Shown one piece after another: positions 27,016 through 64,000 of a stretch of DNA of 64,000 bases. Position 1 is the first letter of the stretch, and every line of letters begins with the position of its first letter. Under the pieces are notes generated by a model. That model worked only from the letters and a program-made list of their open reading frames with translations, searched no databases and was not told where the DNA came from. The stretch is taken from the NCBI GenBank assembly GCA_032622095.1, contig CP136068.1, positions 159,607,465 through 159,671,464 of the forward strand, read 5' to 3'. The translations under genes were made by a program, and so were the position numbers. The stretch is from Siphonodentalium dalli. Its lineage: Eukaryota > Mollusca > Scaphopoda > Gadilida > Siphonodentaliidae.

Positions 27016-29970
27016 TATTTATTTATTTATTTTTTTATAATTGTTATTGAAACAGTCAGATGATTTTACATACAAAATGAATGGTTGTACATGTTGGATA
27101 CAAAATATAGATAATATTCATCCGATACATAGATTCAGGCATACACTCTTTCACGCACTCGCGTGTGCACTCTTACTCAGTGGCTCTAAACATCGATCGG
27201 GCAATCTTTTTTTATTATACTTCCATGGTTTAGCATGGAAGTATATTGTTTTTGTGATTTTTTCTTTTTCTCTATTATTATTCTTCTTAGCACTTTTATA
27301 ATGAGAATAGCTCAGTAGGTACAAGAGCTATAAAGCTGAAACTTTGTATGTATATATATATGTATACAATCTCTAGTGATTAGGCCTATTGAGAATCGTG
27401 TCCTCACTTGACTTGCAGAGTTACATGTATCTCCCTTTATGTGAAAAATTGGTGTTTTCAGAACTCCGAAAATATATGGAGTACAGTACTGACATTTGGT
27501 TTCCACTGAAGCATGAGCACATCAACAACTTTGTCCGTCTTTCCTCTGCAGAGTTATCTCCCATACATGTATATGAGTCAACATCGAAGTCTTTCAGATC
27601 GCCTGTCCTCACATACCAAGAAAGATAGCTGGATTTAGTTTCTATGGTAGTGCTGGCCGTTGTCAATATACTGCACAAAAATATTTTGGACAGGGTCGGA
27701 CTTACATTTTTTGGTTAGGGTGGGGGCGAAATTTTACCCAAAAAAATATTTCCGTTGATTCACACAAAACTCGATAGGTCGATTCCCTGGATCAAGGCGT
27801 TCGTGCACGTGAACGCATTTTGAAAATCCCTCGAAAAATACCAGAGTTATGGCCCCTCGAAATTCATATTTTTTGGATTAATTGTTTGCAGCCAGATCTC
27901 CTCCGAAACGGTCGTAAATTGAAGCGTATGTCATGCACACTGTTTATTCACACCAAATTCGATACATTCGATAATGCGATATAGCTATTATGTTCACTGA
28001 ATCCGTGTTGCCGTTGTGACTACCCCGTCTCAAACCTAACCCAGTTAACCAACTGTTAACAAAGAAATTGTCTATTCAAAATGTAATACATGAACTTTGA
28101 ACGAATGTTGTACAAACTCACATCTCATTCAACAAACTATCCGTTACTGATTCATTAAATTCATATTATGCTACACGCGAAACGGAGACGACTTTTGGGG
28201 AATCCAGAGTCCAAAAAGGATCCAAATCGACCTGTTCCAGAAAAGTCGTTCATTTTGTTTTCACTTTTTGAAAGAGGCTCCATTATTTCAACCTAAACAT
28301 TTGGAAAAGAGCTCTTCACAAATGTCCGCTTATATATATAATATATATTTATATATACGCGAAATTTTTTTTACCCCCTCCTTCATTCGGCTACTCCATC
28401 TCCCTGCGGATGGAACCTATCTCCGATTCGGACAAACCCGTTTCGCGGGCCAGGCTCATTCCTCTTCCTGGGACCGATAGAATGCCCATCGAATTCCAAC
28501 AATCATTACCGGTATGAGTACACATCGGTTGCAGTTCTCAATTAATTGAAACTATTTTGTATCCGTTCACGTACCCGTAAACCATATTAATATATTCTAT
28601 TTTTAAATTGAATGAACGGGAGTCAGCGTATACCGTCCAACTCCCCATCCTTGCCGCCCCTAAGTCGATGATTTTGGTATCATAATTTCGGAACGGAACT
28701 ATCTACGGTGTTGTATTGGTTTCCCATTTAGTATATAGCATAAGTTCGTTTCTATTATGTTCTATTCAGATCTGACCATTTTAAACTGTCTCCTTATCTG
28801 TATGTGTCACACGTGAAAATGTATGAGTTTATTATTAATTCGTCATATCTGAAATAATGTGGGAACTCTGTGAGTATGTCCCTAAAATATGTATAGCTAC
28901 ATTTGACTATCGTAAAACAATATTTTAACAATTTGCATTGAATACAAGCATTAACGCGAGCTGTTTCTACTAAGGGTGAGGGGTATTATGTTGTTACACC
29001 TTATGAAACCACTATCTATGTCATTTCGGTTGCACCAGCTTGCGGAATATCCGAGACGCATAGCTAAGCACATGCATCTGTTTATAAATTTGTTTTGCTA
29101 GGTGATATGGGACTCAGGTCCATCCAAATATGATATATTCTTCTATTTATGTACAGTTGTCAGGAAAAGGTAACAATGTTGGAATATATTGTTAACTATA
29201 CATTAAAATGGCAAACAATATTAATGTACTATAAAGTATAATCAAATCGTGTTCTTGTATATTTGAATGATTGTTTGTTGGATTGGGTCATCTCTCTTCA
29301 ACCAGATGTATTCATCATCAATAGCCATTACATGTATGTAGCTACATTAGGGAATTGCCAGACATGTTAGTTGCCAGCTTCGATCGATCCATTCGCTCAA
29401 ATAATGTACATACAGTTTTGAACCCATTACCCTAAAACATAATTTATGTTTTTTCGAGTGCTACGAATTTAAGCATAATCAGAGCGCACGACGATCAATC
29501 AATTATTCAACCAATCAATACTTTATTCACTATGTCCATGTATATAACTCATGAGAGGCAGTTATAAACACGCATTGTAAACAACAATTATGCATGCAAG
29601 TGTATATATAACTGAGAGTATTAGTACTACCAACTGACATGATATTAATGTAATGTAACATATATATTTTAATAAATAATACATGGTATATATATATGTA
29701 GCTAACAGTTTAACAACCATTCATTGGGAGTCGATATCTTCCGATTAGGATTTGTGTAAACCAACATACAGGCAGTTGCAACTTGAAATACACTCTACCA
29801 CACAATTCACACACACACACACACACCCGATCCAAAATGACATGGCACCATTTTTATTTAGTTTCCGTACAATATGAACCTATTATATGTTGCCTCATTA
29901 CGCCCTCTATGGTACATACTGCGAGGCTGATCTGGCGATGCCATATGCGCTATATTGCGTACCGGTTAGT
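27016..29970. other. Long non-coding stretch, no gene recognised
   Basis: Structures seen are an ATTT run at 27017, a TA-rich palindromic segment at 28333-28358 and an (AC)n run at 29808-29826. The phrase GCCAGATCTCCTCCGAAACG near 27893 has the look of the repeat phrases in Helitron-like elements, but no ends were found. Short frames have no recognisable domains. Confidence 0.4.
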
Positions 29971-30290
29971 GTCTTCGCGGATCTCTCATTGTTGCAGTAT
30001 GTAACTTTTATGACCGCGTTAATTGCTGTCGATATTTAGGTGTGAACAATGGCTGGGCGACTCTTGAAACTTTTTTCTTGGAACTCTGCCGCCTCAGGCA
30101 TAATATATATATTGTGTTTTTGGCACAATGAAATAGAATATAATTTTCTACGACTTTAAAAACATATTATAACATGTGCCAATACCTGCATCGCCTACAT
30201 TAACTGTCAAACTCAATTTGTCACCAAACTTCTGGAGTACGTTGACGTTCTACGTTCATGGCGCATCACTGTGACGTTATAACGAACCAA
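29971..30290 (+). repeat. Near-identical ~320-bp direct repeat, copy 1
   Basis: GTGTCTTCGCGGATCTCTCA starts here and at about 30597. The two copies stay almost identical through ATGGCTGGGCGACTCTTGAA, the repeat-G core and GACGTTCTACGTTCATGG. They lie 626 bp apart. Few differences imply a recent local duplication. Confidence 0.88.
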
Positions 30291-30415
30291 AGCCGGACGC
30301 TTTGGGTCGTATATAGACTATATCTGATTTTGTGACGTCACCAATTATTACTTAATACGACACTGCTGTTTTGAATTTTTTCAAGCGCTTATGTCGCACA
30401 GTAGATCGGTGGGCC
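30290..30415 (+). repeat. Repeat shared inverted with 59520-59655
   Basis: GGACGCTTTGGGTCGTATAT, AGACTATATCTGATTTTGTG, GTCACCAATTATT and GCACAGTAGATCGGTG are found in the same order, reverse-complemented and diverged, at 59520-59655, upstream of the GPCR gene. Confidence 0.75.
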
Positions 30416-30596
30416 TAAAGCATTAATGTCGTAATCTGAAACAAACGTGTGCGTCTTTCAATGGCAAGCGTTCCAAAATGAGGGGAGTTACTATTGGAAT
30501 TATGCACAGTGAAGTTCATTCGTAATTGCGGTTTACATTTTATTGAGAACATAATTATAACATGTTATGGACTGTCAAATATTTGCATTTGCAATA

Positions 30597-30925
30597 GTGT
30601 CTTCGCGGATCTCTCATTGTTTCAGTATGTAACTTTTGTGACCGCGTTAATTGCTGTCGATATATAGGTGTGAACAATGGCTGGGCGACTCTTGAAACTT
30701 GTTTTTTTCTTGGAACCCTGCCGCCTCAGGCATAATATATATTGTGTTTTTGGAACAATGAAAGGGAATATAATTTTCTACGACTTTAAAAACATATTAT
30801 AACATGTGCCAATACCTGCATTGTCTACATTAACTGTCAAACTCAATTTGTCACCAAACTGGAGTACGTTGACGTTCTACGTTCATGGAGCATCAATGTG
30901 ACGTTATAACGAACTAAAGCCGGAC
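30597..30925 (+). repeat. Near-identical ~320-bp direct repeat, copy 2
   Basis: Second copy of 29971-30290, with small indels (for example, loss of TTCT in ACTTCTGGAGTACG). It is followed directly by the 165-bp repeat that recurs at 33087. Confidence 0.88.
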
Positions 30926-30937
30926 GATTTGGGTAGT

Positions 30938-31102
30938 ATACTTATTCTATATTTATTTTGACATTCAAAATTGTCCGTGTGGCGCTTCGGAATGTGTACC
31001 TAGGTTTGTTACGCACCTTTGTCCATGTTACCGAAGACAGGTTTACCCCTGTACTCTATGGTGTTCCCAGCCCCCCTGGATCTCTATATTGTTACAACAA
31101 AT
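30938..31102 (+). repeat. 165-bp repeat, copy 1 (recurs at 33087-33250)
   Basis: From ATACTTATTCTATATTTATT through GTTACAACAAAT the sequence matches 33087-33250 with a single difference seen (CTCTATGG against ATCTATGG). A short frame spans both but ends differently in each. It has no recognised protein features, so I treat it as a repeat. Confidence 0.88.
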
Positions 31103-33939: not shown

Positions 33940-35300
33940 GCCGATTGCCACCAAACTTATATATAATCATCCCCATAATATGAGGAATCTATTGGCGAGG
34001 TTTAAATATGGCAAAAGTCGCGCCGTTCGCGTCAGGGGCGCCCGGAAAGGGGGGGGGGGGGGCAGATTTGTTTTCCTGTCGCCGATTGCCACGAAACTTA
34101 CATATAATCATCCCCGTGATATGAAGAATCCAACGGTGTGGTTTAAATATGTCAAAAGTGGCGTCGTTTGAGTCAGGGATGAACGGAATGGGAGAGGGGC
34201 ACCAAAATTGATAAAACTATTTTTAGCGCCGATTTCCACCAAATTGATATATATTCTTCTTCATGATACAAGGAATCTAATTGTGCGATTTAACAACGCC
34301 AAATTGTTGTTTTTGGATGAGAGATTGGGAGGGGGTGGGCACTAAATTTGATAATAAGTCGCCGATTGCCACCACACTTATACAAACTCATCCCCATGGT
34401 ATGAGGAGTCTAATGATGTGGCTTGTATCTGTCAAATGTGGCCTCATTCGAGTCAGGGTTGCATTGAAAGGGACAGGGGCACCAAAATTGATGCACAATT
34501 TTTTTAGCGCCAATTTCCACCAAATTGATACACGTTCTTATCCATGATACGAGGAATCTAATCGTGATTTAAAGACGCCATAGTGGTGCTGTTTGGGTGA
34601 GAGATGGAGAGGGGGTGGATTGGCACCAAATTTGATAAAAAAAATTGTTTAGTCGCCGATTATCACCAAACTTATAAACAATCATCTCCATGATATCAGG
34701 AGTGTAATCGTGTGGTTTAAGGATGTCACAAGTGGGCCATTCGAGTCAGTGGTGTATAGAGATGAGAGGTACACAACAAATTATATCTATATGTTTAGTG
34801 CCGATTTCCACCAGATTGATACACATTCTTCTCCGTGATACGAGGAATCTTATCGTGTGGTTTATATACACCAAATTGGTGCCCATATGGGTGAGATATA
34901 TGGGGACCTTAAATTTGATATACTCGCCAATTTTCACCAATTTCATATATATGCATCTCTAATCTCTAATGAATCTTAGTGTGTGCAGCTTGAGTCCGAA
35001 ATAGGGACTGGAGGGTCACCAAAACTGATACAAAATATTTTTAGTACCAATTACCATCAAAGTCAGACACGTTCTTCTCAAATGATACAAGAAATAAAAT
35101 CGTGCTGTCTGTCTTTCTGTATGTCTGTGTGCGTTCTATATATATAACTTCACGCGGTACAATCGAGATGGTACCAAGGCGTTCTAAGAGGGGTAACCTT
35201 TTACAAGGAAGATAATGGTGCGGGTTAAAATTTTCTAAAATGACGCTGTTGGTGGGAGGGGAAATTAAAAAAATATGGTGAAATAGTTTTGTCGCTTATT
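33940..35300 (+). repeat. ~140-bp tandem array inside Helitron H
   Basis: GCCGATTGCCACCAAACTTA or its variant GCCGATTTCCACCAAATTGA starts near 33940, 34081, 34228, 34361, 34509, 34655, 34800, 34926 and 35044. The two variants tend to alternate, giving a higher-order dimer of roughly 280 bp. Each unit also has CATGATA-GAGGAATCTAAT and GAGTCAGGG or GTGAGAGAT. Confidence 0.82.
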
Positions 35301-41687: not shown

Positions 41688-42660
41688 GTCTTTTTACGCA
41701 GATTTCTTGTCGGTTTTTGGTCGATTTCTCTTTTTAAACATCAGTTGGACTCAGTTTTTTATTCAAAACATGTTGAATGGTTATCATTTATCACTCTCAT
41801 AGTCGAGCTTGGCGGTTTTGAACATTATATGCGAAGAATTTTTGACTTTTAGATGACCGACCACCGAACCGCCAAGCTCGAATAAAAAATATAAATATTA
41901 AGCTGAATTTTCGCCGATTTCTCGTTTCTAAAACACGTTCCATCTAGTTGTTATGTAAAAACGTGTAAAATGATTATCATTTTTCACAAATATAATCGGG
42001 CTTGGCGGTTTTGAACATTATATACGAAGAATTTTTGACTTTTAGATGACCGACCACCGAACCGCCAAGCTCGAATAAAAAATCTAAATATTAAGCTGAA
42101 TTTTCGCCGATTTCTCGTTTCTAAGACACGTTCCATCTAGTTTTTATGTAAAAACGTGTAAAATGATTATCATTCTTCACAAATATAATCGGGCATGGCG
42201 GTTTTGAAAATTATATACGAAGAATTTTTGAATTTTAGATGACCGACCACCGAACCGCCAAGCTCGAATAAAAAATCAAAATATTGAGCTGAATTTCGGC
42301 CGATTTCTCGTTTCTAAAACACGTTCCAACTAGTTTTTATGTAAAAACATGTAAAATGATTATCATTCGTCACAAATATACTCGAGCTTGGCGGTTTTGA
42401 ATATTTTATATTAAGAAGTTTTGACATTTGATGACCGACCACCGAACCGCCAAGCTCGAATTTTAAATCAAAATATGAAGCTGAATTTCCTGAGATTTCT
42501 CGTTTCTAAAACATGTTCCAGCTATTTTTCATGTAAAAACATGTAAAATGATTATCGTTCTTCACATATATACTCGAGCTTGGCGGTTTTTAACATTGAG
42601 TACTTAGAATTTTCGACTTTTATATGACCGCCCACCGAACCGGCCAAGGCAAAATGATAC
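41688..42660 (+). repeat. 193-bp satellite, five units, each with an internal hairpin
   Basis: CGAGCTTGGCGGTTTT (or CGGGCTTGG/CGGGCATGG) starts at 41804, 41997, 42190, 42383 and 42575, spaced 193, 193, 193 and 192. In every unit AACCGCCAAGCTCG, its inverse, follows about 65 bp later, so each unit can fold into a hairpin. A partial unit without the hairpin precedes the array (41688-41803), and GCTTGGCGCCAAGC lies near 41463. The strict spacing close to nucleosome length and the preserved stems are notable. Confidence 0.9.
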
Positions 42661-48224: not shown

Positions 48225-48623
48225 TTAACCCTTTAACCAACAAAACGGCCAAAACCGGCCAAATAAAGCTTCAACAGCCTAAAATATCTTCGGTCTGTCT
48301 CAATAGAACCATACAAATATGGGTATCATTGGAACCGGCTCCTTGACCACATTGTGATAGTTACAGTTATGCCCTGTGCCAATGCATTCTCTTATATATG
48401 CGAGTCGACCATAGGTCGCCTCGCATATATAAGAGAATGCATTGGCCTAAAAAAAATCTTTTTTTAATACTTTTAACCATTTTTCTTACATTCTTTAACA
48501 ATTTTATAATTTTTAATGTGTTAAGCCAATGCATTCTCTTATATATGCGAGGCGACCTATGGTCGACTCGCATATATAAGAGAATGCATTGGCACAGAGC
48601 CCTTCTGTTGGGTAAAGGGTTAA
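48225..48623 (+). mobile_element. TTAA-flanked piggyBac-like MITE, copy 1
   Basis: TTAA lies at 48225-48228 and 48620-48623. The ends are CCCTTTAACCAACAAAACGG and the inverse of CCCTTTACCCAACAGAA. The TTAA target and a CCCTTT terminus fit the piggyBac superfamily. Inside are CCAAATAAAGCTTCAACAGC and AACCGGCTCCTTGACCACAT, then two 69-bp palindromes (48378-48446 and 48525-48593) with an AT-rich spacer. It is non-coding. Two further copies lie at 51714-52107 and 53028-53410. Confidence 0.88.
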
Positions 48624-48977
48624 CTGGTATTCACCCATTGTGCTAATTCGATAACTGATTCATTAATCAAGAGCTGGGCAAAATCGATAGCATGATTGTT
48701 TCTGTTACTAAATACCATGTATAGATCCCTGCGAATAATTGATGATTATGATAAGAAAGTAATTCAGTTAGTCTAAGGCCGGCGCACACTAGATCCCGAT
48801 TGCTGACGTATCGGTCTCTGATACCGATTGCTCGGGAGTCGCCGTACCGAGCACACTAGCGAGTCATAATGCTCAGCACTTATCGCCATCAAACGTAAGC
48901 ACTTGATTTACTGTCGACAGGTGCTAGCGTGATATACCGGCTTGTTGTTTTGTATACAAAATTGCACGGTTATTTGT
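48624..48977. other. Non-coding stretch, nothing recognised
   Basis: No repeats or frames of note between two palindrome-bearing elements. Confidence 0.4.
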
Positions 48978-49476
48978 GACCCGCCATATCAAATCCAGTC
49001 GTCTGCTCATGTTTGTCTGGGACTCTGTGTGGGTGAAATTATAAAATTGTTAAAGAATACAAGAAAAAATTATAAATTTTGTTTAGGCCAATGCATTCTC
49101 TTATATATGCGAGGCGACATATGGTCGACTCGCATATATAAGAGAATGCATTGGCACAGGGTAAAAAAATCCCGACTTACGACTGGATTTTATATGGCGG
49201 GTCCCACACAGAGCCCCAGACAAACATGAGCAGACGACACTCTTCTATATGCTTCTATATATGTGTGGGGCTCCCTGCAGGGTAATGGATGTTTTTTATT
49301 TTATGTCCTAAAAATTGTAAGAAACATTTATTAAAAAAAAATGATAAAAAATTGTTAGGCCAATGCATTCTCTTATATATGCGAGGCGACATATGGTCGA
49401 CTCGCATATATAAGAGAATGCATTGGCACAGGGTAAACAAAATCCTGACTTACGACTGGATTTGATATGGCGGGTT
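48978..49476. mobile_element. Palindrome-bearing element P2 (rearranged)
   Basis: The outer ends are GACCCGCCATATCAAATCCA and the inverse TGGATTTGATATGGCGGGTT. It holds palindromes at 49087-49155 and 49359-49427, but between them a second right-end sequence (CTTACGACTGGATTTTATAT followed by GGCGGGTC, 49168-49203) abuts CCACACAGAGCCCCAGACAA. This suggests that two copies recombined, or that one inserted in the other. It shares CCCTGCAGGG and the AT-rich spacer with P1. Confidence 0.75.
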
Positions 49477-50718
49477 CAGATCAACCGGACTCGCATAAAA
49501 CGCCGCGCACACCTGTAGCCAAATTTCGCAGAGACCGATAACTGAGCAATCGGGCTCTAATGCGCGCCGGGTTTAAATGTCACCAAACAACGATTGTGTA
49601 CCCATGTTAATATCATTTAGAAGACTGTAAATGTAGGCCTACGTGAGCGGTTATTAAATAAATTAAGATGGCGCAAAATGTTGCAACAATAATTTGGTCA
49701 GGATACTATTAATTTGCTTCATTATTGTTAATAGTGCACCGGTGTGTTCTACCCCACAACCGCATCCCTCCCATCCGCTCCCCTATCGGAACTGATAAAT
49801 AGTTGACTCCGCATTGTTAAATGTACAAGTTACACAATAATTTAGTTGAATGTAATTGTAATATATAAATCCAGGATCTGCCTGACCTGGAGATCGCAAT
49901 GTCCATGTGTCCCGTTCAACTATGGGCATACGACAGGGTAAACCCCGGTAATTATTTTGGCCGATTTGATGCCATTTCTGATTTTTTTTTTTTTTTTTTT
50001 GCCATTTTTCGAAAACTGGCCAAATTGAAAACCAAATGATAGGACCGTGAGAAAACCGATAATAAAAACCAGAGCTAACAAAAACCAAAGCAATATAATA
50101 AAAAACACACACAACATTAAAATAGTTTATTTAATTAATTTTAAAAAATACCAACAAAATGTGCACTGATTAGCTAATTGTACCACAAACCAATACATTA
50201 TTTACAATTAAGACAGAACGCCAAAATAGTACCGAATTATCGCTGTTTAAATAAGTAGGCATGAGCTACTTCTGGTAAATTGATATCCAAACATACTGGG
50301 GCGTGCCACTAAACGTATACCAATTAACAAGTATATGAGGAGTTTAGTGATACCTGGTGGGTTTTTGAGGAAAACGCTTGAAATGTATGGGCCAAAAAGT
50401 TTGGCCAAATGTAATTTTTCAATTTTCGAACAAAATCTGGCCATTGTGGCCAATGTGGACGCTGTGCACACGTATATGGTGAATGTCGAACGTGCGTCAC
50501 CAGTCCGCGGTATGTGTGGTTTTACTCGAAAGTAATTGCAACACAACGTGGTGGGAAATTAGATAAAGGCCCTGTTGTTGGAGGGACGCACGTCAACAAA
50601 GAGTTAAATAGTCTTGGAAAGGTTTTCTTTTTGTAATCTTCAAGCTTGGTATTCACATTGAAGGACTTGTGAAATGGGTGAGGTTTTTTTATAAACATCC
50701 ATGCAAAGCCATAATTTT
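49477..50718. other. Non-coding stretch
   Basis: A T-run of about 20 lies at 49982-50000. Overlapping short frames at 49783-50117 and 50247-50546 run through it and through each other in opposite directions without recognised motifs. Confidence 0.4.
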
Positions 50719-50845
50719 AATATTATACCAAATGTGAGGTAATATTATACCAAATGTGAGGTAATATTATACCAAATGTGAGGTAATATTATACCAAATG
50801 TGAGGTAATATTATACCAAATGTGAGGTAATATTATACCAAAGTT
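50719..50845 (+). repeat. 22-bp tandem repeat, nearly six units
   Basis: AATATTATACCAAATGTGAG recurs every 22 bp from 50719 with no differences in the first five units. It is a very young minisatellite. Confidence 0.95.
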
Positions 50846-51174
50846 GTCGCAAGTTTGTTTCACAAAATTCGCCACAATGCCCTTTACTTGCGTCGAGTTA
50901 ATGTTTAGTTTGTTGTTTATAGATTGTGTATTTATAGATTTCCTCCAGAAAAAAACAATTATTACAATTAGCTCCTGGTTTGCATTATTGTCTCAAATGT
51001 ACTTGGCTGCCCCACCTACGCTGTACAATATGTATCAACCAATACTACCACAATATACATTACGACAACAAGTGTCGACTAAAACATATTTATCACTGCT
51101 GCACTGTATACCGATGTATATACGTGTAAGGATACCGACGAGACACACCACATGACATGTCAATATAAACCACC

Positions 51175-51600
51175 GATACAGGTATCCAATAATCCCCATA
51201 GATACAACACATCATCAATAAATATACATCACAAATACAGGTATCCAGTGATATCCTGATATACAAAAATTACATATAAATATACACCTAAAATACAGGT
51301 ACTCAGTGATTCCCTGAGCTACAACACATCACCTATAAATATACATCACAACTTTTCCAGTGATACCCTGATGTATAACACATCACCTTTAAATATGTAC
51401 CACAAATACAGGTATCAAATGGTACCCCTGAGATGCAAACATCACCTATAAATATACACCTCAATTACTGGTATCCTCCAATGACACCCCTGACATACAA
51501 ACATCGCCTATACATATACACCACCAAACTGGTATCCAATAATACCCCTGAGATATAACACATGGCCTATAAATATGCACCAAAAATACAGGTATCCAAG
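51175..51600 (+). repeat. ~60-bp degenerate tandem array, about seven units
   Basis: ACAGGTATCCAATAATACCC, followed by CTGAGATACAA, CACATCACCTATAAATATAC and ACCACAAAT, recurs with anchors near 51180, 51240, 51296, 51352, 51409, 51470, 51531 and 51591. Units differ at many sites. Confidence 0.8.
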
Positions 51601-51713
51601 TACGAAATTAGTGCTTCTTGTGTGGTGACTTGTGCTGTGTGACAGCCAAACAGTTAGAATGGCATCGTCCGAAGTGTGCATACTGTCGATACTATCGTGG
51701 TCGCAACCCGCCT

Positions 51714-52107
51714 TTAACCCCCTTTACCCAACAGAACGGCCCTGTGCCAATGCATTATCGTATATATGCGAGTCGACCATAGGTCGCCTCGCATATATAA
51801 GAGAATGAATTGGCTTAACACATTAAAAATTATAAAATTGTTAAAGAATGTAAGAAAAAATGGTAAAAAGTGTTAAAAAAGATATTTTTTAGGCCAATGC
51901 ATTCTCTTATATATGCGAGGCGACATATGGTCGACTCGCATATATAAGAGAATATAACTGTAACCATCTTACCATCACAATGTGGTCAATGAGCCGGTTC
52001 CAATGATATCCATATTTGTATGGTTTTATTGAGACAGATCCAAGATAATTTAGGCTGTTGCAGCTTTATTTGGCCGTTTTTGGCCGGTTTGTTGGGTAAA
52101 GGGTTAA
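51714..52107 (-). mobile_element. piggyBac-like MITE, copy 2 (inverted)
   Basis: TTAA lies at 51714-51717 and 52104-52107. It is the reverse orientation of copies 1 and 3, with palindromes at 51746-51814 and 51893-51953. The second palindrome is truncated and runs into ATAACTGTAACC. The long flank with GGAACCGG/CCGGTTCC and GAAGCTTTATTTGG-type sequence corresponds to the left side of copy 1. Confidence 0.85.
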
Positions 52108-53027
52108 GGATCAGGGGACCTAACTTGACCTGATCGGAGCCACATGATTACCATGATAATAGGCAACTTGAAATTATGCTGCAAAATATGTATGTACTAG
52201 TAGAAAATATAATTGCTAGATTTACGTACCAAGTCACCACTCTTATTTGATGAACGGGTAGTTACGTTTATGGAAGAATAGCAAGTTTGATAATTAGTTG
52301 CGAAAGTTAGTCTGAACTCATGTTTACAGTGAATCAGGAAAAAAATTGCAATCTAATTTTCAAGCTTAATTCTTATGTTTTGTTCTACATGCATTGTGCC
52401 GCTTACAATGTATTTACTGCATGTTGTATAGTTTGACCAACATGTGTGAACTTGCTTTATCCTTTCATCTGTTTATCATCTGGTTTTATTATCCGAATAA
52501 CCTCCATATGAATTTTGAACCCTTCTAATATATACTTTTATAACTGAATGGGAGAATCCATTTAGAATAGAAAGAGTTAAGTTCACAGTTGTATTACAAG
52601 TATCAAAGTTCGGGTGACTAAAATATGGAATACAAGTTATGTCTAAGGGTACAAAGTTAAAACTGCTGGAATTTGTAGCTTTCATCTGGGTGTCATCCCT
52701 AAGAATTTTATGGCAAGAGGTCATATGAATGATCTTGCTGTAAAATGTTGATAGGCAGAATAGGTTTCCAGTTGAGGTCCCCCTGACCATTAAAGCACTA
52801 AGTGTTTACCATATTATTTTAAAGTCGCAAAAACGATTGTTCAAAATGATGGTTGGCATCACCGACAATTAACTGTTGACGGTAGAAATGTAATCGATTG
52901 CATAACAGTCCATAAGTGCTACGTTTCCCAAATAAATGTTTCAAATTCCAATATATGAATGAATCCACCGAGAAAATGCTCACGCAACAACATACAATTG
53001 TGTGGCGGCATTAACAGTTCAAATGTA
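52108..53027. other. Non-coding stretch, one unrecognised frame
   Basis: The minus-strand frame 52476-52790 (104 codons, starting MVRGTSTGNLF) has no stop for 315 bp but shows no motif I can place. It could be a LINE C-terminal scrap or chance. Confidence 0.35.
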
Positions 53028-53410
53028 TTAACCCTTTACCCAACAAAACGTCAAAACCGGCCAAATAAAGCTTCAACAGCCTAAAATATCTTCGGTCTGT
53101 CTCAATAGAACCATACAAATATGGATATCATTGGAACCGGCTCCTTGACCACATTGTGATAGTTACAGTTATGCCCTGTGCCAATGCATTCTCTTATATA
53201 TTCGAGTCGACCATATGTCGCCTCGAATATATAAGAGAATACATTGGCATTAACACTTTTTACCATTTTTTCTTACATTCTTTAACAATTTTATAATTTC
53301 TAATGTGTTAAGCCAATGCATTCTCTTATATATGCGAGGCGACCTATGGCCGACTCGCATATATAAGAGAATGCATTGGCACAGGGCCGTTCTGTTGGGT
53401 AAAGGGTTAA
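53028..53410 (+). mobile_element. piggyBac-like MITE, copy 3
   Basis: TTAA lies at 53028-53031 and 53407-53410. The ends are CCCTTTACCCAACAAAACG and its inverse, with palindromes at 53180-53248 and 53312-53380. It is very similar to copy 1, including CTAAAATATCTTCGGTCTGT. Both arms of the first palindrome share the same TATTCGA/TCGAATA change, so pairing is kept. Confidence 0.88.
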
Positions 53411-53614: not shown

Positions 53615-55190
53615 TATGTATTATCAGCTTGTCACCGTGTCTGTCGCGTCGGATGTATTAACAGCTAGTTACTGTGTGGTGTGTTATCAGATAATCGCCG
53701 TGTGGTAAGTTTATCTGCTAGTTACCGCATGGTGTGTTATCAACAAGTCGCCATGGCCATCATGTCGGATGCATTATCACCTATTCCCCGAGTGGTGTAT
53801 TATCAGCTAGTTTACGTGGTCGTTGTGTCGGATGTATTATCCGCAAGTTACTGTGTGGTGTATTAATGGCTAGTCCACGTGTGGTGTATTGACAGCTAGT
53901 CCCCGCGTCCATCGTGTCGGGTGTATTATCAGCTAGTCACCGTGTGGTGTGTTACCAGCTACTCGGCATGGACATCGTGTCAAGCGTATCATCAGCTAGT
54001 TGATGGGTGCTGTATTATCAGCTAGTCACCGTATGGTGTGTTACCAGCGTAACACACCACACGGTGACTAGCTGATAATGCATGGTCATCGTGTCGAGCG
54101 TATCATCAGCTATTTTATGGGTGGTGTATTATCGGCGTGTCACCGTGTGTTCCATTATCAGCTGTTTGCCATGGCCATCTTGCCTGATGTATTATCAGCT
54201 AGTCGCCGTATGGTGTGTTATCAGCTAGTCGCCGTGTGGTGTTTTTTCAGAGATTCACCACGTGGTGTATTATCAGTTAGTTTACGTGGTCGTTATGTCG
54301 GATGTATTATCAGCTAGTCGTTGTGTGGTGTATTAATGGCTAGTTCCCGTGTGGTGTATTGATGGCTAGTACACGTGTGGTGTATTAATAGCTAGTCCCG
54401 TGGTCATCGTGTCGGATGTATTATCAGCTAGTCATCGTGCGTTGTGTTACCAGCTACTCGTCATGGTTATCGTGTCGAGTGTATCATCAGCTATTTGATG
54501 GGTGGTGTATTATCAGCTAGTCACCGTGTGTTCCATTATGAACTATTCACCAAGGCCATCCTGTCCTATTTATTATCAGCTAGTCGCCGTATGGTGTGTT
54601 TTCAGCTAGTCGCCGTGTGGTGTGTTATTAGAGAGTCACCACGCGGTGTGGCCGTTGTGTCGGATGTATTATCAGCTAGTCGTTGTGTGGTGTATTAGTA
54701 GCCAGTCACGATGGGGTGTATTAATAGCTAGTCACCGTGTGGTGTGGCTAGTTACCGTATCAATAATGTCGGATGTATTATCAGCTAGTAGTTATGTGCT
54801 GTATGGTTAGACAGTTGTCACGATCATCGTGTTGGATGTATTATTAGCTAGACGCCATGGCCGTATTGTCATTGTTTGCGTCATTGATGTACGTCATTTA
54901 TGAGCGAGTCACCATGCCCATCTTGTCGGATGCATTATCAACTTGTCACCATGTGATGTATCTTCCGCTAGTCACCGTGTGATGTATCTTTAGCTAGTCA
55001 CCGTGTGATGTATCTTTAGCTAGTCACCGTGTGATGTATCTTTAGCTAGTCACCGTGTGATGTATCTTCCGCTAGTCACCGTGTGATGTATCTTCAGCTA
55101 GTCACCGTGTGATGTATCTTTAGCTAGTCACCGTGTGATGTATCTTCAGCTGGACATCGTGCGATGAATCTTTAGCTAGTCACCGTGACC
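53615..55190. repeat. 26-bp minisatellite running into the GPCR 3' end
   Basis: Units built on GCTAGTCACCGTGTGATGTA plus TCTTTA or TTATCA fill 1.6 kb. The units at 54960-55140 are the most regular (26 bp). Further left, longer composite units add CATCGTGTCGGATGTATTAT. An inverted segment sits at about 54045-54085. The last unit (55171-55187, TTAGCTAGTCACCGTG) overlaps the final codons and stop of the receptor gene. Confidence 0.9.
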
Positions 55191-56099
55191 ATCGTATCGT
55201 CGTTGTCAACGGCGTTTCTTATTCCAAAAAGGCTCCGCACGGCGCGCTTGAAATTTCGGTTTCTCGAAGCAAATATGAAAGGGCAGATGAGACAGTTTCC
55301 CAAGAAAAGGCAATAAAATAGTTGATCTAGAACGATCTGAACGGTCGGATTTGCCAGGTTCTGCACGTTTGTAATAGACTTGAACATGTGTGTCGGGATC
55401 CAACAAATGCACGTACAGAATATAAGCATAAAAATTGTCACCACTCGTTTCATCTCTGACTTCAGTTTATTCGCTTTGTCGAGCGTGCCTACACTTTTCT
55501 GTTGTGCCATGATCAATTTAGCCTGCATTCGTGCTATTACAATGACGTATACGTGGAACAGGAGAGCACCAAGCGTCATAATGATCATTGCAATGTGGTT
55601 AGATAGTTTTTGTCCAAGGGACGGAATTTTTCCGCAGTTGTGCAATATATTCCAGTTTGTCGCCCAATGGTAGCAGACTGGTATGATCCAAGTACAACAT
55701 GTTCCGATGAGAGCAGCCGACATGTATGAAACAAGATGCCTCGTGTCCAGCTTCACGTGGTATTCTGGGTACTTAATGCACATAAATCTTTCGAGGGACA
55801 TTCCGAGATTCAACGCGGCGGCTAAATGAGTGGTGCCGTACTGCACAGTAGCGACAGTGATGCACGCATATTTCGACGTGAACGGCAAACTCGGAATGAA
55901 GAGATACACGGCATAGCTTGGAGTTTGAAGAGCTATCAGAAGGTCAACAGCCGATAGACATATCAACATCTTGTCATGGAATCGGCGAAGGTAGCTCGCC
56001 CTGTAGAACGCCGCGATGATGACGATGTTTGGAATTGTGCTAAAGAAGGCGACCGTCACCATTATATATCCCATGGTCTGCATCAGCCACCAGTAATAC
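55172..56099 (-). CDS. Class A (rhodopsin-like) GPCR, exon 2 with all seven TM helices
   Basis: This orphan membrane receptor would signal through G proteins; the ligand is unknown. With exon 1 the protein has 349 residues. TM1 spans about 46-73 (Asn65). TM2 has LSAVDLL with Asp93. Cys120 (TM3) and Cys196 (loop 2) can form the usual disulfide. TM3 ends in E144-R145-F146, an ERF form of the DRY motif. Trp178 marks TM4. TM6 has CWIP (273-276). TM7 has CPFIF (313-317) where most receptors have NPxxY. Helix 8 is RNFKRAVRSLF. The frame is open up to a Met at 56116, but CTTAATTGCAG there looks like an intron acceptor, so I start the exon at 56099. The last codons (TMVTVTS, stop) reach into the 26-bp minisatellite. 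A minus-strand AATAAA lies at 54574-54569. It resembles peptide or amine receptors, but no subfamily can be named. Confidence 0.9.
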
Positions 56100-58248
56100 C
56101 TGCAATTAAGACACAATATTGTCAGAAAACAACTTGATTAACATAAAGAGAAAAAGAGAAACAGCGAATCCAATATGTCTTTGCCGACGATATGCGTGCC
56201 AGATATCGATGTACAGTCTTTCTAAACTGCCGAATCTCGGACGTGGATATGGCCAACCAAAATGTCTTCAACCTATTGGTCATTATCGCATGATTGGGTT
56301 TACGTATCAGATAATTCAGAATCGTACAGTAAAGTAAATCAGTGCCGTAGACTGTCATATGATGCGAACGAATAATAAGAGCGCATGTACAATCGTATAT
56401 CAGCTTGGTATGTTGTTGAAATGCCCCAAAGCTTAATGTGTGAGAACGAAACGCGCGGCATTCCAACGAATGACCCATAATGGTTGCATCACGAACATAT
56501 TTCCATCGCTATGTGATAGTAAAAAAAATATATCTGGGGTAAGTATAGTGACATTACTCGTTATTGATTTTATCGCAGCCGGCATTGCGCTAATTTAAAA
56601 CTGAGCGAACATAGTACGACTATGAATTAAAAACAAGAGGATTATGTTGATTAGTTACATACATTTCGAAACTTCGGACACCGAATAGGTAATTACGCCT
56701 ATACATGTAGGCCTATATTTACATTCGGTTAACCAATATAAACAAATCAAAACCGTATTCCCCGTATTCACCACCCTGGAATGACACCGTGACCATACAG
56801 ACAGCCAACCAGCAACCAAGTGTTGATTTTTCTGAAGTCATCTGCATTCGCGGTTGTGGTTTTCTGGTTTCGAGTTAATTTCATTGATGTCCAGTCCATC
56901 ACTATTTCAATATCAGAACAATTATTTGGAGCATATAACCACCGCAAGAAAATGATGATGCAATTATGATCTACACGATGTAAATGCGCTATGATCGTGT
57001 TTAGTATACACATGTGTCTTCAGAAAACGACTAAGAACTGTCATCAGATACACTAGTTTTACGAAAATATTGTTGTCAAAACTGAGCGAAAAAGAGTACT
57101 GCGCGAATTTAAATACGTGTAAGTTAGATGGAACAGAATACAGCTTCTGTCACTGGAATATGCTCGTTTGGTAATTATTGTTCATGAACCGGGTTAGAAA
57201 ACGGCTATTTTTAGAACTGAGTAACCAAACTGTTGGGTTCTATGTTGGTATTACGTGGAAACAAAGTTTGCTATTTGTTTTTCTTAGAGTGTGTTGTCAC
57301 TATATAATGTGTCATGAACATATTGTTGGCAACACTTAATGAAAGGTTTTTTTTCAAAAGGAGATTCAAAGAAAGGTTGTTGTTGTTGTTGTTGAAAGTT
57401 ATGCCTGTAGTTAACTCTCATGGCGCCAGCGTCGAGTTTATCTCGTAGTCCAAAGTCATGCCGTTCACGCCGGTGACAAGATATTTTCACTCTATTCCTT
57501 TCCTTCATTTTGAAATAATAATACCGTTATGTTCATCACCTGTCCATGTATTACACGCATTATACAGGTACCCCGTTTCAATGCGTGTGACAATTAATAC
57601 CCTGATGAGCCGGACTCTTGACACTATGGCTAGATACTCTGTTAGTGTGTTAGCAAATTAATTAACTAATTGACTAGGTTGCAACTGGTTTAGTGACATA
57701 TATTAACATACCTTATTTACATTATTTAAATTTTGTACTAAAGTTTACAGGATCACTTATATCAGAAACAATCATATAGTGAACATGATTCTGGTAAATA
57801 TATAACGGTTACGAAGTGCTTTGGATCAATTATCAATTATAGAAATATTGAAACACATACTTGTACTCAATGTACTAGTACGTTTATGCCAGACCAGAGC
57901 GTCAACCAATACGACTGAGGTGTCGGTATTGACATAAAATTAGAATGCTAGGTATACAAGTACCCATTCATGCACGTTCATATTATAGTTGTGTGTTGGC
58001 ATTGTTAAAAACGGCGATCGAGCAACTTACTTCAACTGCATGTACTATTCCATTACCTATGAAAACAACAAGTACGTTCACGGTGAACTTAGAACGCATC
58101 ATACATTAGCCAGATGATGGCTCAAAACTAGTAGCCGATTGATGCTATAATAATATAACGTTATGACGTCGCTCGGGTGGGGACTGGTCCATTAGCACCG
58201 TAATTCGTCGGCGGCTGTACGATGAATGGGTTAATAAACATGTCTTAC
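56100..58248 (-). other. Predicted GPCR intron
   Basis: On the minus strand it starts GTAAGA at 58248 and ends TTAATTGCAG at 56100, a GT-AG intron of 2149 bp. It contains a (GTT)5 run near 57376 and no recognisable exon or transposon. The open frames within it (such as 56122-56478) show no conserved features. Confidence 0.7.
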
Positions 58249-58370
58249 TTCCGTAGTTCCGTTAACGAACTGTCTGGAGATGGAGTTGTTATTGCTTCCC
58301 AAATCGTGGTGTTATAATAAGCATCAACTGAATCAGTAGTAAGCGACAGCGTGTCTAGTGTCGATGCCAT
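58249..58370 (-). CDS. GPCR exon 1 (start codon and extracellular N-terminus)
   Basis: The minus-strand ATG at 58370 sits in GAGATGG, a fair initiation context. Forty codons follow (MASTLDTLSLTTD ... PSPDSSLTELR) plus two bases AA before a GTAAGA donor. Exon 2 begins with G at 56099, completing AAG (Lys41) and leading into YYWWLMQ and TM1. The phases therefore match exactly. The peptide is short, Ser/Thr-rich, lacks a signal peptide and has an N-glycosylation site (Asn20-Thr-Thr), as usual for class A receptor N-termini. Residues 1-16 or so lie inside a repeat unit that is amplified elsewhere upstream. Splicing is predicted, not shown. Confidence 0.75.
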
Positions 58371-58445
58371 CTCGTTATCTATCCTAAAATGATAATAATA
58401 TATGATGTGATAAATCGGATTGGTCTCTTTGTGACTGCGAACAAG
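58325..58445. repeat. Single copy of the 105-122 bp array unit, overlapping exon 1
   Basis: Plus-strand ACTGAATCAGTA, ATGCCATCTCGTTATCTATC followed by CTAAAATGATAATAATATAT, GATGTGAT and TGTGACTGCGA match, in order, the array unit at 63.0-64.0 kb (ACTGACTCGGTA, ATGTAATCTCGTTATCTATC, CTAAACTAATA, GGTGTGAT, TGTGACTGAC). The receptor start codon falls inside this copy. In the array units the corresponding trinucleotide is ATT, not ATG. Confidence 0.75.
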
Positions 58446-59519
58446 TGAGTTTGATCTGGTTTTAGGGAGGGAGTAAAGTTGGATATGTCAAATTGGACAC
58501 CCCGTCAATCCCACAATAGGGACCCTCTGGTCACGCCCCTGAACTAATATGACCACACGCTAGCGTAATTAACGAACCACAGCTAAAACGCATGCATAAG
58601 CTAGGATATATCTGTGTCTTTTTAATCCTAAACATAACTTCAAAGACGCGTATTCCCATCAAATAAGATTAACTTAGGCCTTATATCGTGGTGTGATTAT
58701 GTTATATAACACTCCATACACACACAAGGGTTCATCGACAGAGTGGGTTCAATAGCAATTGCGTGCATAAATTAGGTGAACCATATCATACATCAAGGCA
58801 TGTGAGAAATCAGAGATCACAATGCAAACAGACTACGAACTCACCGACTCAGACTTAAAACCTAAATAAAAAACTTTTAAAAGCCATTACTTTTGAAAAA
58901 ACTATTATAGGTTATAAACCGCCAACATAAAACTGAAAGTATTCAAAAGTCAAGACTGTTGTTGTTGTCTAGAGGGTGTATTTTACTGAAATTAACTATT
59001 ATACCATTGACGCTGCATGTGTGCGCAATCCTGGTGAGATGGAACTCTACTAAGAAGCTTGTCGATTTCATCATGTTCATTTTAACGAAACTCTCAAGGG
59101 CAACGTCATCATGTAGCTTTCACCATCGACCGAATTTGCGATAACCTGAATGTATCTTATGCTTGTTCATAAGTATGCGTTTCTTGTCGATTCATGAACA
59201 TATAAGGATATCTGAGGATTATCAGTATGCACGGTAATAATATAATAATTTAAACGCGATATAATAACGTTTGCCTGCATCACGAATTTCGATTTCGATT
59301 CCAGTATTGTCCCCAGCCCAGCCAGAGTGATTGAGCTTTTCCCATTGCACGCGACATTTATATTTTAGGCCACTCCGTTGCAAATATTTGACAGTCCATA
59401 ATGTTATAATTATGTTCTCTATAAAATGTAAACCGCGGCTACGAATGAACTTTACTATGCATAATTCCGATAGTAACTTCAATTTCAGATTACGACACTA
59501 CAGTAACTGCTTTATACAC
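58446..59519. other. Non-coding stretch upstream of the GPCR
   Basis: No exon, TATA box or repeat could be assigned confidently. The promoter of the receptor gene may lie here or farther right, since 5' untranslated exons cannot be excluded (TTTTAG just upstream of the start codon could be an acceptor). Confidence 0.35.
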
Positions 59520-59655
59520 ACCGATCTACTGTGCGACAAACGCGCTCGCAAAAATTCAAAACAGCAGTGTTGTATTAGATAATAATTGGTGACTTCATAA
59601 AATCAGATTATAGTCTATATACGACCAAAGCGTCCGGCCATTGTTCGTTATAATA
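59520..59655 (-). repeat. Inverted, diverged copy of 30290-30415
   Basis: Reverse-complemented, it gives GGCCGGACGCTTTGGTCGTA, TATAGACTATAATCTGATTT, GTCACCAATTATT and CGCACAGTAGATCGGTG in the same order as at 30.3 kb. No coding content. Confidence 0.75.
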
Positions 59656-59945
59656 AAAATATATGGTGTGATGGACCGGATATGTGACTTTGCGACTTAC
59701 ATCAGTACCACGTGGTAGAGTGTCTCATCCCGATGTAAACGGGTTATCTATTTTAAAACAATAATACTATATGGTGTGATGAACAGGATATGAATATGTG
59801 CGACTGAGTCAGTACCCTGTGATATAATGACTCATGCTGATGTAATCTCGTTATCCATCCTAAAACAATATCAACATATGACGTACTGTGCATGACTGGA
59901 CTATGTGCAACTGAATCAGTATCTGTGGTAGTGCAGCACATCACC
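59656..59945. repeat. Degenerate array of the GPCR start-exon-like unit
   Basis: About two and a half units of roughly 105 bp contain GAGTGTCTCATCCCGATGTA, ATCTCGTTATCCATCC, TAAAACAATA and CTGAGTCAGTACC. They are intermediate in sequence between exon 1 and the array at 63-64 kb. Confidence 0.75.
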
Positions 59946-60174
59946 GAACAAATACGCACATAATCGACCTATAATGTGAATCAGGTACATATTGTGATTA
60001 TTTAATGTCTTTAATGTCTTTAACACATAACACATGAGTACATATAACACATAGATAGTACATTACATAAATATGAGATGTCAATTAAACAGAGAAACAG
60101 GAAATACACATATATAAATGTAGTGTGTATAACACATACAAAGAAGAACCTAGAAATCAGCAGTATATATAATA
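59946..60174. other. AT-rich non-coding stretch
   Basis: ACATAACACAT-type repeats (60015-60050) occur. Nothing else is recognised before the Helitron cluster. Confidence 0.4.
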
Positions 60175-60966
60175 CTAGAAGGTGACCCGACTTCGTCCGG
60201 GCTTTTACCTTGAATTGACCATTGTGAAGGTCAAGGTCAGGTGGGGTCAAACACCAACACCCCAAAAATTGTGGACATCGGCCCAGCGGATACCGGGAAA
60301 TCGGCCCAACGGATACCGAGATACCCTATGCATCAAATTTCGTCCGTAAAAATCCGCCAGTTTAACCCGATTTGATTTCCACTCAAGTATATACACGCGT
60401 CTCATATACACACGCTCATTAATTATCAAGTTTCAACGTAAAGATAAATTACCATCGGTGCCCGAGATATCGCCAAGACGTCTGAAACAGTCAAATGCAT
60501 CGGCCGGTTAAGCGTTAACGTGATCTAAAGTTATGACCTCTAACGACGTCATAGAAGTTACGCATTATTTTTATCCTGATGGAAGATAGTACCACTTCTT
60601 CTTGATAATTGAGGCAGATAACTAAAACGGATACATACGCATTATATATCGTTGGAAAGAGGAAACACGAAAGATTATCACAGTGTCATTATTATGACTG
60701 GCATTTTATTATTCGCGCTGTTTCGAATCGATTTGTAAGCACCGAACTCAAATGAAAGTCCCGTAACACAGCGTAAAAACAGATTTGACCTCGGCACGTG
60801 AAAAGTTGACCTCGGATCTAAAAATTAATATGCCTATGCCACTTCCCGACCGATAGTATCCTCACATACGAAGTTTTATCGAAATCGGCTAGGCCGTTTT
60901 CGAGTCCATCGCGATCACACACACACACAGACACACACACACAGATCTTCCAAAATATATAATAGA
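60175..60966 (-). mobile_element. Non-autonomous Helitron-like element F
   Basis: On the minus strand it begins TCTATTATATATTTTGGAAG at 60966 and ends with the hairpin CCCGGAC-GAA-GTCGGG, TCACCTT and CTAG (60178-60175), followed by T. It has a GT/TCTG-rich start and CGATTTCGATAAAACTTCG-type phrases, and no protein. It abuts element D. Confidence 0.72.
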
Positions 60967-61677
60967 TAAATGGTGACCCGACTTCGTCCGGGCTATTAAA
61001 AAACCAAATTTCAAGTCGATAGCTCCACCCGTTTCCGAGATCTGGTCTGCGCATGCGCGAAGCTGGCGTCGCAGGGCTCGGCGACCCGATAAAATTCGTA
61101 TCCGGGGCAAGATACATTCACATACCAAATTTCAAGTCGATAGCTCCACCCGAGATATATAGCCCAATGTCATTTGCGGATACCTCGGCCGGTGTTGAGT
61201 TAACGCGACATCGGCCGGTTAAGAGTTAACGCGATCACGTCACGATCTGTTGATGGCGTAATATATTTACGCAATGTTTTTCGATGAGCGAAGCATGGTC
61301 CTGCGTTCTTCCCGATAATTAAGGTAGAAACTTTAAACGTACACAGACGTGTGATACATCATTGGAAAGATGAAGCGCCACAGATTCTAACCGTGCAAAT
61401 TATATGACTGGCAATATATTATTCGCGCTATATCGAATCGATTTGTGAGCACCGAACTGAAATATATTAGCGCAAAACGGCGTAAAAACAGATTTGACCT
61501 CGGCACGTGAAAAGTTGAGCTCGGATCTGAAAATTAATAGGCCTATGCCACTTCCCGACAGAAAATACCCCCACATACCAAGTTTCATCGAAATCGGGTC
61601 GGCCGTTATCGAGTCCATCGCGAACACACACACAGACAGACACACACACACACAGATCTTCCAAAATATATAATAGA
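60967..61677 (-). mobile_element. Non-autonomous Helitron-like element D
   Basis: It begins TCTATTATATATTTTGGAAG at 61677, directly after the CTAG of element C, and ends CCCGGACGAAGTCGGG plus TCACCATTTA at 60967, where element F starts. The last four bases are TTTA, not CTAG, so this end is variant or damaged. It carries one and a half of the 124-bp units seen in element A, plus two direct copies of CGGCCGGT-containing sequence near 61190-61220. Confidence 0.65.
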
Positions 61678-62099
61678 CTAGCCGATGAGCCCGACGTTGT
61701 CCGGGCTATTCAAACCCCAAATTTCAAGTCGATAGCTCTACCCAGCCCGACTTTCCAAATTTCAAGTCAATAGCTCCACCCGTTTCCGAGATCTGGTCTG
61801 CGCATGCGCGAAGCTGGCGTCGCACTGGCTCGGCGACCCGATAAAATTCGTATCCGGGGCAAGATACATTCACATAGCAAATTTCAAGTCGATAGCTCCA
61901 CCCGTTTGCGAGATCTCGTCTGCGCATGCGCGAAGCGGGCGCCGCACGGGCTCGCAAATACGACGACGTCCACCGCCTGGTCAAACTACACACACGTACC
62001 AAGTTTCGTCCCGATCGGTCGAGAATCGTAGATTTGTATAAATGACAAACAAACAGACAGACATACAGACATACAGAGGTCTTCAAAATATATATGAGA
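61678..62099 (-). mobile_element. Non-autonomous Helitron-like element C (same subfamily as A)
   Basis: It begins TCTCATATATATTTTGAAGA at 62099 and ends GCCCGGACAACGTCGGGC plus TCATCGG and CTAG (61681-61678). Start, hairpin and terminal spacer are identical to element A at the other end of the window, but it has fewer 124-bp units. A sequence ending in CAACCATTTA precedes it (62100 up), like the end of D, suggesting a fourth tandem neighbour. Confidence 0.75.
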
Positions 62100-62989
62100 T
62101 AAATGGTTGACCCCCGCTGCGCTCTGTGACCAAATCATCCGGTTGCGGCACCTGTGAAGTGGTGTCGTTTTTCACGAGTGAGATGGATATATCTCATTAC
62201 CCGCGGTGTGATGTCATTATCGAATATTCCGACCAGAGTGTTATATAATTGAGTGTCCGGTAATAAGTTAATCGCGGGCGATATGCCCCGTAGATAATAA
62301 AATAATTACACAATATTGGAATTCTGCATTACTCAAAACCAAATCCTATATAGTTGGAAATTGTATTAGACCAAATCCTATATAGTTGGATATTTTATGG
62401 TTTCACACACCCCCAGTTGGAACCCCCTAGCAACGCCCCTTAGAGCACCGTTCTGAAGAATCCGCCGGCTGACTAGCTGACAGCCTTGGGCAATTTGAGA
62501 ACTTTGGGTTAAATAAAGATGGAGATCAAAATGGTCATCTTTGCCTCAAAGAGGTGGTTTCTACTGGAAACAAAGCACAATATCATCGCAGTAGCACAAT
62601 GATTATGTTCCTAGGACTCCTTTGTATTATTTCAACCGAGTTTGTGATGGTGGTATTTCTGTGCACCCCGTAAATTACACGTAAAGCGTTCGTCCGAGAA
62701 CAGGGGGCAGTACAGTACGAAGTGCTGATTCTGAAATAAGCAGATAATGGACTCTCACCTGTTATTTCGATTTATGGCGCGCAACACAAAATGTTAAAGA
62801 GCACACACCTGAAAAGTCGTGAGTTGGCTTATTTGTGCCATTGTCCGCACATAATTCGCTTAAAATCGCATCGATAATGTGACTAAAATGTTCTCATTTT
62901 CAGCACATAATATACAAACTGAGATAACTTTAAGCAGGTTATCTACCTGAAGCATGCTCTATTATAAGCATATAGTGTGCTGGTTTTCG
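62100..62989. other. Non-coding stretch, possible Helitron 3' end at its left edge
   Basis: On the minus strand 62165-62100 reads GAGCGCAGCGGGGGTC then AACCATTTA, which could be the end of another Helitron-like element. CCAAATCCTATATAGTTGGA occurs twice near 62340 and 62372. No gene is recognised. Confidence 0.4.
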
Positions 62990-64000
62990 GGAGAACATGC
63001 TTGGTAGAGTGTCTCATGCTGATGTAATATCGTTGTCCATCCTAAAACAATAATAATATGGTGTGATATATATGGTTTGACTATGTGTGACTGACCCGCT
63101 ACCCGACGACAGAGGGACTCATGCCGATGTAATCTCGTTATATATCCTAAACTAATATAAATAATAATACATGTATATGGTGTGATGTATATGGTTTGAC
63201 TATGTGTGACTGACTCGGTACCCGACGACAGAGGTACTCATGCCGATGTAATCTCGTTATCTATCCTAAACTAATATAAATAATAATACATGTATATGGT
63301 GTGATGTATATGGTTTGACTATGTGTGACTGACTCGGTACCCGACGACAGAGGTACTCATGCCGATGTAATCTCGTTATCTATCCTAAACTAATATAAAT
63401 AATAATAATACATGTATATGGTGTGATGTATATGGTTTGAATATGTGTGACTGACTCGGCTCCCGACGACAACGGGACTCATGCCTATGTAATCTCGTTA
63501 TCTATCCTAAACTAATATAAATAATAATAATACATGTATATGGTGTGATGTATATGGTTTGACTCTGTGTGACTGACTCGGTACCCGACGACAGAGGTAC
63601 TCATGCCGATGTAATCTCGTTATCTATCCTAAACTAATATAAATAATAATAATACATGTATATGGTGTGATGTATATGGTTTGACTATGTGTGACTGACT
63701 CGGTACCCGACGACAGAGGTACTCATGCCGATGTAATCTCGTTATCTATCCTAAACTAATATAAATAATAATACATGTATATGGTGTGATGTATATGGTT
63801 TGACTATGTGTGACTGACTCGGCTCCCGACGACAACGGGACTCATGCCTATGTAATCTCGTTATCTATCCTAAACTAATATAAATAATAATACATGTATA
63901 TGGTGTGATGTATATGGTTTGACTATGTGTGACTGACTCGGCTCCCGACGACAGAGGGACTCATGCCGATGTCATCTCGTTATCTATCCTAAACTAATAC
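62990..64000. repeat. 119-122 bp tandem array, nine units, continuing past the window end
   Basis: CTCGTTATCTATCCTAAACT anchors fall at about 63031, 63136, 63255, 63374, 63496, 63618, 63740, 63859 and 63978. Spacings of 119 and 122 differ by one TAA triplet. Inner units are nearly identical (GACTGACTCGGTACCCGACG, ATGTATATGGTGTGATGTAT). The unit is homologous to the exon 1 region of the GPCR at 58325-58445. Confidence 0.92.

Follow-up and report, generated by a model that had tools for sequence, protein, structure and literature searches.

The stretch of DNA analysed here, which we refer to as the window and which is 64 kb long, would carry a local minisatellite upstream of a minus-strand 7-transmembrane receptor gene, with the edge unit on the gene side overlapping the predicted gene start. 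We hold belief and doubt in this arrangement to be about evenly balanced. An old edge unit would provide the start codon and some 14 codons for the extracellular N-terminus, while the rest of exon 1, donor included, would be single-copy sequence. Unrelated sequence would later have split the inner array, and a single founder unit would have given rise, by unequal exchange or slippage, to the new copies at the array's far end, the edge units decaying in the meantime. Four elements of this scheme are inferred: exon 1 is a true exon, the array once ran without interruption, its far end was re-amplified in the manner given, and the ATG and reading frame arose within the repeat and not the repeat from the exon.

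The receptor is predicted to have two coding exons:

55172 to 56099, minus strand: receptor exon 2, holding nearly the whole 7-transmembrane domain (Pfam 7tm_1), with the stop codon TAA at 55172-55174.
58249 to 58370, minus strand: predicted coding exon 1 of the receptor (ab initio), with its ATG at 58370-58368, 40 codons plus 2 nt, and the donor GTAAGA from 58248.

Exon 2 is predicted to encode a rhodopsin-like 7-transmembrane receptor: its residues 24-276 match Pfam 7tm_1 at 61.8 bits (gathering cut-off 30.5, E 9.3e-17), and its matches to PDB sequences are weak, the best being somatostatin receptor 2 (E 1e-07), with opioid and other receptors also found. Because residue 24 already corresponds to position 2 of the Pfam domain, exon 2 would leave little space for an extracellular N-terminus. 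Its open frame has an upstream limit at 56137, and the acceptor-like site before it at 56100 ranks 13th of 393 AG sites when these are scored with a weight matrix. When the receptor was searched against the 64-kb window with tblastn, its own gene and a single match at chance level (E 0.98) came back, with no paralogue that would confirm the N-terminus, and a single-sequence structure model of exon 2 (mean pLDDT 44.6) was too poor for use.

Exon 1 at 58249-58370, an ab initio prediction, is probably real. Its splice phase fits that of exon 2, giving a joined open frame of 349 aa, and it is one of nine phase-fitting first-exon candidates between 56.1 and 64 kb, which use five distinct donors (candidates had at least 20 codons and a donor of at least 5 bits). 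Its donor has the best score of the nine, 7.01 bits, only just ahead of the next at 6.97 bits; the eight remaining candidates share four other donors, one of which has the latter score. A purine at -3 together with a G at +4 occurs in two of the nine, this candidate and the one with its ATG at 56899. The predicted peptide is S/T-rich with an NxT site, as is common in receptor N-termini. Since the frame stays open for 39 codons upstream of the predicted ATG, there may also be an in-frame extension or an upstream exon beyond it.

These features speak against the first rival explanation, that 58249-58370 is not an exon but a decayed repeat unit with a chance ATG and open frame, the receptor beginning elsewhere, which we consider unlikely though deserving of serious weight. 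The narrowly best donor, the fitting phase, the good bases at both key positions of the start context and the NxT site in an S/T-rich peptide all tell against it, as does the probable near-absence of an extracellular N-terminus from exon 2. On the other side, further phase-fitting candidates exist and codon usage, trained on exon 2, gives exon 1 no support: 35% of 160 non-coding open stretches score equally well, and two of the five other scored candidates (56899-56772 and 63017-62947) score higher. GC3 is 0.35 in exon 1 against 0.565 in exon 2, and within exon 1 the repeat-derived part outscores the remainder on codon usage. In shuffles of 56.1-64 kb, a candidate of at least 40 codons with a donor of at least 7 bits and a strong start context arose in 5 of 200, rising to 46 of 200 without the demand on start context and to 118 of 200 if 20 codons suffice; shuffles of 56.1-59 kb gave 3, 13 and 49 of 200 at the same three settings, all of which were thresholds chosen after the case had been seen.

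The repeat enters this exon from its upstream side:

58327 to 58437, plus strand: a solitary decayed unit of a family with units of about 105-122 bp (nhmmer and shuffles; 66-72% identity with fully covering units).

An nhmmer profile of the family that drew on seven distal units and two from the middle block, with the exon unit left out, matched 58327-58426 in the 64-kb window at E 1.5e-13, and pairwise alignment extends the match to 58437. Under each of two scoring schemes, 58240-58460 scored higher against the unit than any of 1000 dinucleotide shuffles. The original prediction, that the gene start lies within one member of the repeat family, is borne out to this extent, exon 1 itself being predicted. 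It had also claimed that exon 1 aligns along its length, which does not hold: the decayed unit extends over 67 nt upstream and only 44 nt of predicted exon 1, whose length is 122 nt, and the overlap with the coding sequence is 58327-58370, the start codon and about 14 codons. When 58327-58369 was compared with 11 units, the score against nine was reached by 0 of 1000 shuffles, that against one by 1 of 1000 and that against the diverged unit at anchor 63028 by 101 of 1000; the distal units being almost the same sequence, the tests against them are not independent. The remaining 78 bases of the exon (58249-58326), which include the donor end, have no similarity to the 11 units, with shuffles matching the score in 578-965 of 1000, and 58284-58326 likewise behaves as shuffled sequence does. 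The similarity stops sharply at 58327, inside exon 1. Taken alone, 58249-58370 is indistinguishable from shuffled sequence with BLAST-type scoring (equalled by 403 of 1000 shuffles) but stands apart from it with 1/-1 scoring (9 of 1000).

Within the exon unit, 26-29 of the 44 coding positions are identical to the fully covering units, compared with 40-46 of 56-58 in the upstream part; the coding part is the less alike of the two and bears no sign of constraint. The exon unit is one repeat length plus about 4 bp long, and it diverges from the others about as much as the whole middle units do from the rest.

Those other units form two further blocks:

59650 to 59945, plus strand: the middle block (TRF), two whole units (59690-59797 and 59798-59904) between two decayed partial ones.
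62997 to 64000, plus strand: the distal block (TRF, identity matrix and tree), a diverged edge unit followed by eight units and running off the end of the window.

The searches with TRF, blastn and the profile place members of the family on the plus strand in three intervals, 58327-58437, 59650-59945 and 62997-64000. The units at 59.65-59.94 kb and 63.0-64.0 kb, with a spacing of 105-122 bp, are indeed present. Both whole middle units match the profile (nhmmer E 1e-22 and 1e-24), though both were part of it, and the partial ones fall below threshold in the profile's register (E 0.049 and 9.9). The distal block had been described as nine near-identical units. This is true of eight, seven whole and one cut by the window end, which are 90-100% identical, while the ninth, the edge unit at 62997-63084, is 72-80% identical to them. 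Within 63085-64000 the variants at 63445 and 63808 are 99% alike and those at 63204, 63567 and 63689 are identical except for a 3-base gap; such recurrence of unit variants suggests higher-order exchange.

We read the repeat family as local within the 64-kb window, because nhmmer at E<=0.01 found no copy in it outside 58.3-64 kb and all matches above the inclusion threshold lie on one strand. A dispersed element is disfavoured as the source as far as this window goes, with zero copies elsewhere in it. Dispersed sequence of another kind does lie between the blocks, where 1.2 kb separates the exon unit from the remaining units:

59379 to 59653, plus strand: a dispersed-repeat fragment matching only as far as the left boundary of the middle block, with an inverted copy at 30277-30587 (78.5%).

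Another dispersed family, at 60498-62104 and 314-1224 and 80-97% alike between these two ends of the window, occupies a large part of the interval from the middle block to the distal one. That a once-continuous array running from exon 1 was split by insertions is only partly supported: the fragment lies directly against the middle block and much of 60.5-62.1 kb consists of dispersed copies, but the block ends, when joined, are out of register, as judged by eye from the unit positions. Elsewhere in the window, 29967-30332 and 30595-30960 form a direct duplication about 630 bp apart (92% identical), part of which recurs at 59379-59653.

The history of the array may be read from a tree of 12 rows, unrooted, in which the eight distal units form one clade (support 100/98) and the exon unit groups weakly with the middle unit 59690 (73/78). 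Neither the tree nor the codon counts that follow include the partial unit M59905p, because of its poor alignment and its gap at the start codon. The units come in two lengths: the exon unit, like those of the middle block and the distal edge unit, is of a short form; the eight distal units, where complete, are 12-17 bp longer. Because the distal clade is 90-100% identical and of the longer form while the other units are of the shorter one, amplification was probably recent at the far end, as had been proposed for the distal units, and the gene-side unit would be an old, decayed member.

The codons themselves bear on the direction of change. At the fifth codon of the exon, where the exon reads CTA, all 11 comparable units have TGA, including three diverged units outside the young clade, and the exon ATG is absent from 10 of the 11, being present at the same place in the truncated last unit at 63927. 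None of these other units is able to encode predicted exon 1, and the array is for this reason not made of working first exons. Amplification of a whole first exon was rejected as well, the donor end at 58249-58326 matching none of the 11 units; the proposal that the array arose by amplifying a first exon together with its promoter is weakened by these codon states and by the mere 44 nt shared, donor end excluded. Since the TGA and the lack of an ATG also occur in diverged units that do not belong to the young clade, it would be simpler, on a tree that is unrooted, to suppose that the exon unit acquired its ATG and frame. Recruitment of the repeat into the exon, rather than the reverse, is favoured, and the exonisation put forward in the original prediction fits better than exon amplification, qualified by the weak placement of the exon unit and by the predicted status of exon 1.

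The reverse course, which we regard as improbable, is that a tandem duplication took in the 5' end of exon 1 together with the flank upstream of it, that the duplicates outside the gene lost the ATG and frame, and that a later descendant was amplified. The length of the exon unit, one repeat plus about 4 bp, is what an unduplicated source copy would have, and the geometry, with a unit over an exon edge and the array beside the exon, is as in published mirages (PMC3087553, PMC3902484). The codon states of the 11 units, including the three diverged ones, count against such a history, as does the 1.2 kb that keeps the exon unit from being contiguous with the others. That the units are amplified regulatory or splice-site modules under selection for receptor expression is very improbable, for while the exon unit and seven distal units agree in all 19 bases of the stretch 58370-58388, at the ATG and immediately upstream of it, and 10 units retain a TTTAG|GAT that could be scored and resembles an acceptor on the minus strand, that stretch differs by 1 to 5 bases in both middle units, the distal edge unit and the next unit, and the 10 acceptor-like sites rank 21st-76th of the 393 AG sites, with one unit lacking the AG and the window-end unit unscored.

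The rest of the window is rich in repeats. TRF reports 63 rows in the 64 kb, many overlapping, and further tandem arrays lie at 34078-34857 (unit 280 bp) and 41756-42648 (unit 193 bp). A near-palindromic element with CCAATGCATTCTCTTATATATGCGAG recurs by eye within 48380-53380, often paired, at about 48.4, 48.5, 49.1, 49.4, 51.75, 51.9, 53.2 and 53.3 kb, and looks like a miniature inverted-repeat element. Of the 67 open frames that reach 90 aa, 20 were scanned against Pfam, which found only the receptor and two reverse-transcriptase fragments on the minus strand (RVT_1), at 17641-18237 (E 3.3e-10) and 4895-5266 (E 6.1e-06, below the gathering score), and an Rfam scan of the window gave no structured-RNA match at gathering score.

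The other end of the receptor gene runs into a different array:

53757 to 55199, no strand assigned: an unrelated 26-bp-based array downstream of the gene (TRF rows 53757-55187; self-matches reaching 55187-55199).

Its gene-side end holds the stop codon and the last 4-8 codons, the translation ending ...MVTVTS*, in agreement with the earlier claim that the stop lies inside a different array. That both ends of one gene lie in different arrays is notable, but arrays are common throughout this window. It is tempting, if doubtful, to suppose that both ends of the receptor protein were made from unrelated minisatellites, the start and 14 codons from the 105-122 bp unit (approximate size) and the last codons and stop from the 26-bp-based one. 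If true, the edge units of gene-flanking arrays would be a source of new protein termini, and start and stop positions would be governed by repeat turnover.

The closest known systems are in the lancelet, where tandem repeats lie over exon edges in Adh3, TnC, globins and PGBD5, with units of 150-160 bp in BflGb6, 157 bp in BflGb9 and 60 and 108 bp in PGBD5 (PMC3087553, PMC3902484); tandem duplication of exon edges has been proposed as the origin of these mirages. The array described here resembles them in its tandem minisatellite-size units of comparable size, one of which overlaps an exon edge, here that of a predicted exon. In the BflGb6 mirage the inner units are homogenised and the edge units excluded (PMC3087553), and here too homogenised units accompany an excluded, decayed edge. 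Here, unlike in the mirages, the exon edge in question is a start codon of an exon that is only predicted, rather than a proven splice boundary, and the array lies in three blocks over 5.7 kb. Around the predicted junctions at 56099 and 58249, a self-comparison showed nothing off the diagonal at E<=1e-3.

Short tandem repeats have been tied to the selection of translation starts in vertebrates, with non-homologous N-termini, in a study of microsatellites compared genome-wide (PMC6206671). The likeness lies in a repeat sequence beside a start codon; here, however, there is one minisatellite at one locus. In the literature on minisatellites, mirages, exonization and start codons, no start codon inside a minisatellite unit appeared among the matches listed, as judged by titles and abstract openings. 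Human TYMS has a polymorphic 5'UTR repeat just upstream of the ATG, the function of which has been studied. That repeat is likewise of minisatellite type and sits at a translation start; it stays within the UTR, whereas the repeat considered here enters predicted coding sequence.

If exon 1 is real, the exon-edge minisatellites of the lancelet type would be extended from splice junctions to the translation start, and the locus would offer a testable case of a repeat unit supplying the N-terminus of a protein. In that case, individuals whose arrays differed in length would also differ in the sequence that lies upstream of a receptor gene.
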